DNA of 64,000 nt from Acetobacteraceae bacterium (GTDB lineage: Bacteria; Pseudomonadota; Alphaproteobacteria; Acetobacterales; Acetobacteraceae), in the NCBI GenBank assembly GCA_947474705.1, contig CANJJS010000010.1:22199-86198 (forward strand). Direction: 5' to 3'. The notes beneath the pieces are model-generated. The model was not told the DNA's origin, ran no database searches, and worked only from the letters and a program-made list of their open reading frames with translations. Positions 25,564 through 60,902 of the stretch are shown here, in pieces. The translations under genes were made by a program, and so were the position numbers. Position 1 is the first letter of the stretch. Every line of letters begins with the position of its first letter.

Positions 25564-26490
25564 ATGTCCACGGAAACCTCGACCAAACACCGGCTGGAAC
25601 TCCCCGCCGCGGTCAACACGCGCCGGATCGTCTGGCCCTATGCCATCGCCATCGGGTCGTATCACGCGATTGCGTTGCTGGCGTTTCTGCCTTGGCTGTT
25701 CAGTTGGACGGGCGTCGGACTTGCCTTCGCGGGGACGTATCTGTTCGGGTGTCTGGGCATCAATCTTTGCTACCACCGCATTCTCACGCATCGCGGCATG
25801 GTCTGCCCGAAATGGCTCGAATACAGTTTCGCGACTCTCGGCGTCTGCTGCCTGCAGGACACGCCCGCGCGCTGGATCGCCGTCCACCGCCGGCACCACG
25901 AGCATTCCGACAAGCGCGACGATCCGCATTCGCCGCTGGCCGGGTTCTGGTGGGGGCATGTCGGGTGGATGCTGCTCGACAATCGGGATCTTTACCGGTT
26001 GGGGATTTTCGATCGCTACGCCAAGGATATTCTCCGGGATCCGTTTTACCGGCGGCTGGAGAAGCCGATCCTCTACGCGGGGATTATTCTGATTTCGTGG
26101 TATGTGTTCTTTCTCGGCGGGTTTCTGACCGGCCTCGCCGCCGGCCACAGTCTGGGCGAGTCCGCCCAATTCGGCGCCAGCGTTTTGATCTGGGGCGTGT
26201 TCGTCCGCACGGTGCTGGTCTGGCACATCACCTGGTCGGTGAATTCCCTGTCGCATCTCTGGGGTTATCGAAACTACGAAACCGCCGACGACAGCCGCAA
26301 CAACTGGCTGGTCGCGGTGCTGACCAGCGGCGAGGGCTGGCACAACAACCACCACGCCGACCCCCGCTCCGCCAGCCACGGCCATGGCGGCTGGGAGATC
26401 GATCTTATCTACGTGTTTGTCAGGGGGCTGGAAAAGCTCGGCCTGGCGAAGGACGTTCGCCGGCCGGGCGCGGGGCTGAAAAAAGGCTGA
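25564..26490 (+). CDS. Acyl-CoA (delta-9) fatty acid desaturase
   Basis: HRILTHRG, HRRHHEHSD and HNNHHADPRSA histidine boxes with TM segments. Confidence 0.92.
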   Translation: MSTETSTKHRLELPAAVNTRRIVWPYAIAIGSYHAIALLAFLPWLFSWTGVGLAFAGTYLFGCLGINLCYHRILTHRGMVCPKWLEYSFATLGVCCLQDTPARWIAVHRRHHEHSDKRDDPHSPLAGFWWGHVGWMLLDNRDLYRLGIFDRYAKDILRDPFYRRLEKPILYAGIILISWYVFFLGGFLTGLAAGHSLGESAQFGASVLIWGVFVRTVLVWHITWSVNSLSHLWGYRNYETADDSRNNWLVAVLTSGEGWHNNHHADPRSASHGHGGWEIDLIYVFVRGLEKLGLAKDVRRPGAGLKKG

Positions 26491-26504
26491 CGGCGCCCAT
26501 GACC

Positions 26505-26775
26505 GCGGGGTGCCGGGTGGCGACACCGGGGCTCCGCCCCGGACCCCACGGGGGCTTTGCCCCTCGACCCCACCAGGGCGGGGGCCCTGGACCCATTTGG
26601 TTGGGGTGTTTGAAGAAGGGGGGCCATCCGCGACGTATCAACGTCCGAGTAGGCCCCCCTTCTTCAAACACCCCAAAGAGACGGCATCCAAGGCCCTGCC
26701 TTGGCGGGGTTCGAAGGGGCAGCGCCCCTCGCGGGGTCCGGGGCGGAGCCCTGGTGTTTCCATTCGGCACGCCGC
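26505..26775. repeat. Nested quasi-palindromic intergenic element, copy A
   Basis: Perfect 25-bp inner arms 26601-26625/26652-26676 (TTGGGGTGTTTGAAGAAGGGGGGCC) around a 26-nt loop; outer arms GGCTCCGCCCCGGACCCC/GGGGTCCGGGGCGGAGCC. Confidence 0.85.
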
Positions 26776-26789
26776 GCGCCAAGGGGGCT

Positions 26790-28331
26790 TCAGTTCTTGC
26801 ACCCCGCGGCGATCGTGACATCGTTGAACCGGTCGTCGCCCGAGGGCAGATACGGCACCAAATTCAGCACGCAGCCCGGCTTGTAGGCGTAGACATTGGA
26901 CCGGGTGATCATCGGGATCGTCGCCACGGACGTCACGACCTCCCGCGCCAGGTCCCGCATCACGCCCACACGCCGAGGGTCCGTCGCGGCCATCGCGCGG
27001 GCCTGGCCCAGCAACTCGTCGATCCGGGGGCTGGCGACGCCGCCGGGGGCATAGGACCCGCCGGTGCCGACGATCTCATGCACCGTCTGGATCGGATCGC
27101 TGCGCCCGCCGTACCGCCCCATCAGCATGTCCGCCCGCGTCGGGGGGCGGTAGAATTGCGTGAATTGCGAGACATCGACGACGTCGAGTTTCATGCGGAT
27201 CCCGACATCGGCGAAATTCGCCTGCAACGCCTCCGCCATCTGGCGATATTCGCTGTTGTTCAGCACGAGATCGGTCAGATCGATCCCGTCCTTATATCCG
27301 GCTTCCGCCAACAGCGCCTTGGCCTTGGCGGGGTCGTAGGGATAGGCGTTCTCCAGTTCCGGCACATAAAATGGCGAGGCGCGCGACCACATCTGCCAGG
27401 TCGCCCGCGCGCTGCCGTTGGTCAGCGCCTCCGCGATCGCCTCCCGGTCGATGGCGTGCGCCATGGCCTTGCGGACGCGGATATCGCCGAGCGGACCTTT
27501 TTTCAAATTGGTATAGATCAGCCACAACGCGTTCTTGTCGGTCATCTGTATTTGCAGACCGGCGCCCTTGGCCTCCGGGATCTGCCGTGGATCGATTTGC
27601 GCGATATTCGCCTGGCCCGAGCGCAGCGCGTTCAACCGCGCGCGGCCGTCGGGGACGTAATGATGTTCGAAGGCGATGGCGCGGCCTTTGATGCCGCCCC
27701 AATATCCGTCGAAGCGGGTGGTGAGGGTTTTCACGTTCGGATCGAAGTTTTTCACGCGGAACGGCCCGGCGCCGATCGGTTTCAGCGCGGAGCCGATGAC
27801 GCCTTCGGTCAGCGCGGCGGGGCTGACCATCATCCCGGCGTTGGCGCCGAACCAAAACTCGATCTGCCCGCTGGGCTTTTTCAGTTTGATGTGGACGACG
27901 TCCTCGCCCCGGTATTCGACGGAGTCGATCAGCTTGAACGTCTCGATGACCGTGGTGCCGGCGCGCGTTCCCAACGCGGTCATGCGTTCGAAATTCCGCT
28001 TCACGGCCTCGGCGTTGAAGGGTGTGCCGTCGTGGAACGTGACGCCTTTCCGCAATTTCAAGGTCAGTTCGGTCAGGTCCGCGTTGCGGGTCCAGGACTC
28101 GACCAGGCCCGGTTCCGGATCGCCCGCGTCGTTCAGGCGGATCAGCGGTTCGTACACCGCCAGCAGCGCCTCATGCGAATAGGAAGAATTGTTCTGCGGC
28201 TCCACCGGGTCGAGCGTCTCGTTCCCCGCCATGTCGTAATAGATCACGGGGGTGTTCAGGTTCGGTTCCGCCGCGCGCGCGGACGCCGCGGTCAGGAGCG
28301 CGAGAGACATCGTCCAGGCGAGAAGGCGCAT
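26790..28331 (-). CDS. ABC transporter substrate-binding protein (peptide/nickel family 5)
   Basis: Signal peptide MRLLAWTMSLALLTAASARA; YEPLIRLNDAGDPEPGLVESWTRNADLTELTLKLRKGVTFHDGTPFNAEAVKRNFER. Confidence 0.9.
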   Translation of the reverse strand: MRLLAWTMSLALLTAASARAAEPNLNTPVIYYDMAGNETLDPVEPQNNSSYSHEALLAVYEPLIRLNDAGDPEPGLVESWTRNADLTELTLKLRKGVTFHDGTPFNAEAVKRNFERMTALGTRAGTTVIETFKLIDSVEYRGEDVVHIKLKKPSGQIEFWFGANAGMMVSPAALTEGVIGSALKPIGAGPFRVKNFDPNVKTLTTRFDGYWGGIKGRAIAFEHHYVPDGRARLNALRSGQANIAQIDPRQIPEAKGAGLQIQMTDKNALWLIYTNLKKGPLGDIRVRKAMAHAIDREAIAEALTNGSARATWQMWSRASPFYVPELENAYPYDPAKAKALLAEAGYKDGIDLTDLVLNNSEYRQMAEALQANFADVGIRMKLDVVDVSQFTQFYRPPTRADMLMGRYGGRSDPIQTVHEIVGTGGSYAPGGVASPRIDELLGQARAMAATDPRRVGVMRDLAREVVTSVATIPMITRSNVYAYKPGCVLNLVPYLPSGDDRFNDVTIAAGCKN

Positions 28332-32281: not shown

Positions 32282-32333
32282 ACGCGTCGCTCCCCTGTGC
32301 TCCGCCGGTCTTCGTCCAATGGCCACGAACTGG

Positions 32334-32678
32334 CAACCGTGCCGGGCTCTGGCTCCGTCCGATCGAGGATGGATCGGCGTTGGGGCTCTGCCCCCGAGAG
32401 CCGCGAAGCGGATCGAGCCCGCGAGGGCGCTGCCCTTCGAACCCGCCAAGGGCTCGCCCTTGGAACCCCGGGGTTTGGCCGGTTGTTAAGGGAGGGCCTT
32501 CCACGGATGTTTCAACGTCCTCGCATGGCCCTCCCTTAACAACCGGCCAAAATCGATCGCGGTCCAGGGGACGTTCCCCTGGTGGGGGTCGAGGGGGCAA
32601 AGCCCCTCGTGGGGTCTGGGGCAACGCCCCAGCGCTGGTCTGTCCTCGATCGGACGGAACCCAGGCCCCGCACGGTTG
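32334..32678. repeat. Nested quasi-palindromic intergenic element, copy B
   Basis: Perfect 25-bp inner arms 32474-32498/32527-32551 (TTTGGCCGGTTGTTAAGGGAGGGCC); perfect 16-bp outer arms 32354-32369/32643-32658; CAACCGTGC/GCACGGTTG at 32334/32678. Confidence 0.85.
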
Positions 32679-32745
32679 GCGGCTCTTGCCAGGAGCGCGG
32701 CCGCGCGGGACGATTGGGGGGATCGGACCTGGGGGGGCGAACGCG

Positions 32746-40003: not shown

Positions 40004-40295
40004 TTGGGGCGGCGGTGTGGGGGAGAGACCGGGGGCTTTGCCCCGGCCCCCGCGGGGGCTTTGCCCCTCGACCCCGCCCCAATGGGCCTTTGGGGCTCGC
40101 TTTTGGAACCTCGGGGTTGGCCTGTTGTTAAGGGTGGGCCATCTCAGCCGCCGATACAGCTTCGCATGGCCCACCCTTAACAACAGGCCAAAATCGATCG
40201 CGGTCCAGGGGACGTTCCCCTGGTGGGGTCGAGGGGCAACGCCCCCGTGGGGTCCGGGGCAAAGCCCCGGTCTCTCCTCCACACCGCCGCCCCAA
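40004..40295. repeat. Nested quasi-palindromic intergenic element, copy C
   Basis: Perfect 24-bp inner arms 40117-40140/40168-40191 (TTGGCCTGTTGTTAAGGGTGGGCC); outer arms TTGGGGCGGCGGTGTGG(G)GGAGAGACCGGGG / CCCCGGTCTCTCC(T)CCACACCGCCGCCCCAA. Confidence 0.87.
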
Positions 40296-58903: not shown

Positions 58904-59211
58904 CCTTCTGGCATCCGGGCGAGGATGGAAAGACCTGGGGCTCCGCCCCAGACCCCGCGGGGGCTTTGCCCCTCGACCCCACCAGGGCGGGGGCCCCCCG
59001 CCTTCGCAGGGGCAAGCCTGGACCCATTTCATTGGGATGTTTCAGGAAGGGGGGCCATCCGAGGCGGTTCGACGGCCACGATAGGCCCCCCTCCCTGAAA
59101 CATCCCAAAGAGTCGGCATCCAAGGCCCTGCCTTGGTGGGGGTTGAGGGGGCAACGCCCCCCGCGGGGTTCGGGGCAGCGCCCTGGGACTCTCCTCCCGC
59201 GGATGCGAAGG
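58904..59211. repeat. Nested quasi-palindromic intergenic element, copy D
   Basis: 25-bp inner arms 59032-59056/59084-59108 (TTGGGATGTTTCAGGAAGGGGGGCC, one mismatch), 27-nt loop; outer arms GGGGCTCCGCCCC / GGGGCAGCGCCC, CCTTC..GCATCC / GGATGCGAAGG. Confidence 0.83.
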
Positions 59212-60609: not shown

Positions 60610-60662
60610 AACCAAACGGAGGGGGCGGGCCACCGTCCCCTCCCCGCCTTCTCCTCCTCCCT

Positions 60663-60886
60663 GGGTGTCCCCCCTACGGTGGCCGTACATCCGCGGAATG
60701 AAAATCCGCCGTCTGGCACGCACTCTCCTCGTCATGGCCCGACCTGGTCGGGCCACCGGTAGTGCCAGAAAGGCGGGATTGCGCCGCTCCCGGTCCCCCG
60801 ATCGAGTCGGGGGATGACGAGGAGATGTTGTGCCTGACTTCGAATTTTCATTCCGTGGATGTACGGCCACCGTAGGGTGTCCCCCC
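60663..60886. mobile_element. MITE-like non-autonomous element (200 bp, 60675-60874) with flanking 12-bp direct repeats
   Basis: TIRs TACGGTGGCCGTACATCCGCGGAATGAAAAT (60675-60705) and ATTTTCATTCCGTGGATGTACGGCCACCGTA (60844-60874), one mismatch; GGGTGTCCCCCC at 60663-60674 and 60875-60886. Confidence 0.8.
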
Positions 60887-60902
60887 GGGACAGGCGGAGG
60901 GC

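Follow-up and report, generated by a model that had tools for sequence, protein, structure and literature searches.

The analysed window is a 64,000-nucleotide stretch of a contig from an Acetobacteraceae bacterium, and the element considered here, copy A, lies in it between the convergent stop codons of two genes, one ending on the plus strand at 26490 and the other on the minus strand at 26790. The initial annotation had placed a nested quasi-palindrome at 26505-26775, filling this gap; its position holds, but the element is slightly larger (about 26487-26793) and its convergent setting proves atypical, being shared by 6 of 53 copies. The parts of copy A and the three further copies in the window, none of which is assigned a strand, are as follows:

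26487-26527, locus-specific outer left arm of copy A, including the stop codon of the plus-strand gene; base-paired to 26752-26793 (fold-back of the flanks scores 20-22, versus 9.0 for mispaired flanks)
26528-26540, small hairpin H1 of copy A (GGGGC-TCC-GCCCC), which nearly all copies have at the same place
26551-26563, small hairpin H2 of copy A (GGGGC-TTT-GCCCC)
26573-26590, hairpin P of copy A (CCAGGGC..GCCCTGG), an asymmetric module
26601-26625, inner left arm of copy A, 25 nt, 25/25 complementary to 26652-26676
26626-26651, loop of copy A, 26 nt; both orientations occur among copies
26652-26676, inner right arm of copy A, 25 nt
26688-26704, hairpin Q of copy A (CCAAGGC..GCCTTGG), an asymmetric module
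26716-26728, small hairpin H6 of copy A
26740-26751, small hairpin H7 of copy A
26752-26793, locus-specific outer right arm of copy A, including the stop codon of the minus-strand gene
32324-32688, copy B, in a divergent gap, with a copy-specific inverted repeat of about 60 nt from its flanks
40004-40295, copy C, in a tandem gap
58920-59201, copy D, whose left half carries one additional unit and whose stem has one mismatch

As first described, the inner arms of copy A pair at every position around a GGCC-bounded loop, and the concentric outer arms are equally borne out, with 76% complementarity between 26487-26554 and 26726-26793. The 307 nt of copy A are predicted to fold into a single hairpin of -135.9 kcal/mol, versus -75.6±4.4 kcal/mol for shuffled sequences (z -13.9), none of 100 shuffles being as stable. 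The inner hairpins of copies B and C occupy 32474-32551 and 40117-40191, and in all four copies the loops measure 26-28 nt and the arms differ from copy to copy, as had been reported; the further claim that each copy stays self-complementary is exact for A, whereas the inner arms of D pair at 24 of 25 positions, with a single A·C mismatch. A second, unrelated palindromic repeat of about 230 bp lies at 60660-60889, with arms 77-79% complementary; an 835-kb sample of the genome holds four other full or nearly full copies of it (L053, L073, L068 and L062, 86-96% identical) and three partial ones, and no copies were found in the analysed sequence of relatives. Its imperfect arms are perhaps those of a young family.

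The plan of copy A is that of a dispersed family, whose elements of about 300 bp consist of a locus-specific arm, H1-H2 (GGGGCnnnGCCCC), P, the long hairpin, Q, H6-H7 and a second locus-specific arm, the small hairpins keeping a near-constant spacing in most copies. In the genome to which the window belongs, 191 candidates were found and at least 40 copies were scored, and the 30 strong palindromes with family modules counted in the 835-kb sample extrapolate to a genome total of about 190. With all kinds taken together, strong palindromes reach 53 per Mb there, versus 2.6 per Mb in an element-free relative, G012. Matches were obtained in 16 of 40 genomes searched, all 16 of the same genus, within which copy number varies widely, and none came from the members of other families of the class included in that search. 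Two relatives, about 90% identical to each other, carry 244 and 80 candidate copies: G048 (public MAG CALQHT02, with the submitter label 'Nitrosovibrio') and G016 (CAMBXJ01, labelled 'Asaia'), whose labels conflict. Fifty-three copies, examined against genes called with our own dicodon script, are without exception intergenic (27 in tandem gaps, 20 in divergent and 6 in convergent ones). Among related genomes, the element is present at some sites and absent at the counterpart sites. At three elements (L012 1501-1753, L084 and L088) synteny breaks, the two sides of the copy matching element-bearing sites on two contigs of a relative (site pairs L142 and L110, L148 and L150, L119 and L128), suggesting from sequence comparison that recombination between copies may have caused rearrangement. 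Variant copies also occur: L048 2552-2652 and L059 16962-17016 are deletion derivatives that retain outer parts and miss the core, L077 3715-3932 combines ordinary outer modules with a wholly different core loop (GCGCCGGGACCGTATCGGTCCCGGCGC), and an element of G016 (L105, around 277), adjoining the orthologue of copy D's neighbour gene, is missing most of the long hairpin's right arm, apparently through a palindrome deletion.

The initial annotation had named identity to a known REP/BIME or IS-derived family as the outcome that would tell against its reading. Rfam 15 returned nothing above the gathering score, and the profile of the Y1 transposase (PF01797), the only IS-type profile tried, found no gene in the copy-rich G048 (98% complete, 244 candidate copies), nor in G016, G013, G018, G023 and G004; the genome of the window has one such gene, whose locus of about 2 kb contains neither H units nor core motifs. 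Like REP/BIME sequences and REPINs with their RAYTs, the elements are high-copy, intergenic, palindromic and hairpin-forming, and some REP families likewise divide into subfamilies in which the complementary residues of the stem are alternative ones (PMC3116915, PMC3733652). Mobilisation by a RAYT as a REP or REPIN was nevertheless rejected, given the lack of a Y1 transposase in copy-rich relatives and a unit of about 300 bp against the 20-60 bp of a REP; moreover, GTAGGCC stands at the apex of some copies only and not at the unit end, so that the REP tag (GTAG/CGTC at the hairpin end) is missing. The family shares with MITEs, such as those of Coxiella (PMC5896051), its short, non-coding, high-copy units with terminal inverted repeats, and departs from them in its copy-by-copy arm covariation and in the failure to find a direct target duplication or, in a search confined to PF01797, a parent transposase. 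The repetitive hairpin elements of sponge mitochondria are also intergenic and probably mobile, with types that differ by complementary substitutions (PMC2800124), but the elements described here reside in a bacterial chromosome and have a far larger nested structure. Strictly intergenic and often placed in divergent gaps (20 of 53), they are therefore not intrinsic terminators, and around copy A only two weak terminator-like hits were seen. Loss of SbcCD was likewise discarded as the reason for the persistence of the palindromes: no SbcD (TIGR00619) scored above cut-off in 29 members of the genus, with or without many copies, weaker metallophosphatase hits being present, and this absence cannot therefore explain the difference in copy number. 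A literature search covering sources outside the subscription journals found no description of the family, and on the best reading the repeat family is new and its mechanism known in kind and unusually well displayed.

The changes matched on both sides of the stem, already noticed in the four copies of the window, amount to very strong covariation. In 110 copies from four genomes, a set that favours paired copies since each had to form at least 16 of 22 pairs, a copy's own arms pair at 21.4 of 22 positions, versus 14.1 of 22 when arms are exchanged between copies, and 596 paired cells are double-changed versus 62 mismatches. In a gapless alignment of 27 copies, 99.7% of stem cells are paired (79.6±1.0% after shuffling), 107 cells are double-changed (21.6±4.1 after shuffling) and the covariation score is 0.539, versus 0.129±0.014 in shuffles, which ignore relatedness, and 0.07-0.14 (maximum 0.138) in slid controls, which account for it, with the caveat that a sequence-derived structure tends to win on cells paired. 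Covariation ordinarily counts as proof that an RNA or DNA fold is functional. Selection for structure is one reading, the long hairpin being needed as RNA, or as single-stranded DNA for mobility, and preserved by compensatory mutations; it agrees with the strength of the signal and with an architecture kept in the four genomes although stem sequence varies, the apex GGCC and the H units being conserved. We regard it as unlikely all the same. The excess of G·T pairs that it leads one to expect is absent, the mismatches comprising 20 G·T, 16 A·C and 26 others and hence showing no wobble preference, though so few mismatches, in elements with no assigned transcribed strand, make this a weak test; in GTAG repeats, by comparison, G·T pairing is often seen (PMC3116915, PMC3733652). 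Since gaps of all three kinds, tandem, divergent and convergent, contain copies, no common transcript role is evident, and selection for structure predicts neither the flipped loops nor the palindromic unique flanks, gene ends included, described below.

The orientation of the loop is independent of that of the outer P/Q modules, with counts of 11/6 versus 5/4 in the genome of the window and 10/6 versus 5/9 in G048 (Fisher p 0.69 and 0.27). Among the loci compared, which took in part of G048 and further loci retrieved by searches that yielded no additional pairs, only three pairs of elements were found with both flanks orthologous between G048 and G016. In the first (L143/L131, flanks about 90% identical), the outer modules have the same orientation and the loop is inverted, with 23 of 26 positions identical in inverted versus 14 of 26 in direct alignment, on our own count, and one stem pair is G-C in one genome and T-A in the other, changed on both sides. 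In the second (L151/L087), one stem pair is changed on both sides and the loop keeps its orientation. In the third (L129/L086, whose location coincides with that of L253), the segment from P to Q has the opposite orientation with respect to the flanks; the flank arms show no difference over about 45 nt in G048, against about 14 differing sites of 50, counted by eye, in G016. Such pairs bear on a dedicated mobility process, in which a hairpin intermediate would be copied on one arm in rolling-hairpin style and each new copy would start out with its arms matched, its loop in either orientation at random and its flanks inverted. Matched arms and random loop orientation among copies agree with it, as do the presence or absence of elements between related genomes, the wide range of copy number in the genus and the outer arms partly common to copy A and L002, the closest pair of copies. 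On the other hand, no candidate enzyme was found, the copy-rich relatives having no Y1 transposase, and at one and the same site orthologues show different arms and loops, changes for which no new insertion is needed; we therefore hold this process to be rather improbable. A bolder version, in which an element-encoded or host process copies arm from arm during mobilisation, leaving inverted rather than direct target duplications, and the family is a new class of hairpin-templated mobile element, would, if true, explain nearly everything, and we consider it similarly doubtful.

Self-complementarity does not end with the shared modules. The 60-nt flanks of a copy have a mean fold-back score of 19.2, versus 9.0 for mispaired flanks, 7.5 for flanks taken 80-140 nt out and 7.7 for random intergenic points. 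Similarity of flanks between copies is near background by about 15-20 nt, and pairing within copies extends to 30-50 nt and takes in gene ends, so that the outermost arms, like the long stem, diverge between copies and stay matched within each. These flanks might have been palindromic beforehand, the element having inserted into existing palindromes such as terminators, and REP dimers have indeed been described inside longer palindromes (PMC3733652). This origin of the inverted flanks seems very improbable: when flanks are joined by script as a simulated empty site, 56% of copies score at least 16, versus 5.4% of the element-free gaps of the same genome and 0.5% of G012 gaps, and 38% score at least 20, versus 2.2% and 0 of 202; the strongest palindromic flanks are, besides, those in divergent gaps. 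The one comparable site without an element, the G016 counterpart of L134 in G048, is not palindromic (fold-back 7.5 versus 21), its gap being diverged, with any target duplication unreadable, and representing either the pre-insertion state or a deletion.

Of the two readings offered by the initial annotation, selection on a cruciform or RNA fold and active palindrome correction, the latter fits better in view of the flipped loops, the lack of a wobble preference, the palindromic flanks and the orthologous loci, and the former found no specific support for an RNA fold. We consider it probable that the elements form a family of MITE-like palindromic repeats and that replication template switching is the main agent homogenising their arms and flipping their loops. 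Pausing at the hairpin, a nascent strand would copy the opposite arm and then return, restoring complementarity between the arms; a switch running through the apex would invert the loop, and one starting at the outer arms and running outward would turn unique flanking DNA self-complementary. Dispersal would be the work of some enzyme or process that perhaps adds to the palindromy in its own right. Published work attributes arm homogenisation together with spacer inversion to template switching (PMC8604942), as well as the origin and upkeep of perfect hairpins (PMC8794818), and quasi-palindrome mutations of this kind show the same complementary arms, inverted loop and clustered multi-base changes (PMC8604942, PMC8794818, PMC7202029), whereas here they would extend across about 200 dispersed copies per genome and the unique flanks of each copy. 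Spacer inversion and, the small H loops excepted, homogenisation of arms within copies, both marks of an inverted repeat corrected in this way, are seen in this family. Template switching, which would account at once for the matching of arms, the flipping of loops and the palindromy of unique flanks, is the simplest single cause, and we infer that it is what mainly keeps the arms matched.

Two observations stand against template switching. In the small hairpins, the 3-nt loops of a given copy do not correspond to each other (H1/H7, 20 of 59 versus 18.6 expected; H2/H6, 7 versus 15.2) although they sit between two homogenised zones, which simple arm-long correction does not predict; conversion among copies that keeps the modules separate is a possible explanation, and we have no other good one. 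In the other palindrome family of this genome, the arms have stayed imperfect, at 77-79% complementarity.

Hundreds of copies covary here, and the lack of a wobble preference, the loop flips and the palindromic unique flanks point to mutation as the cause, which makes the family a ready means of testing selection against template switching, and a warning for RNA discovery by covariation. Rates of template switching in bacteria could likewise be gauged from it under natural conditions and, if template switching is the true cause, the family would constitute a natural record of a mutation process that has been studied mostly in the laboratory.
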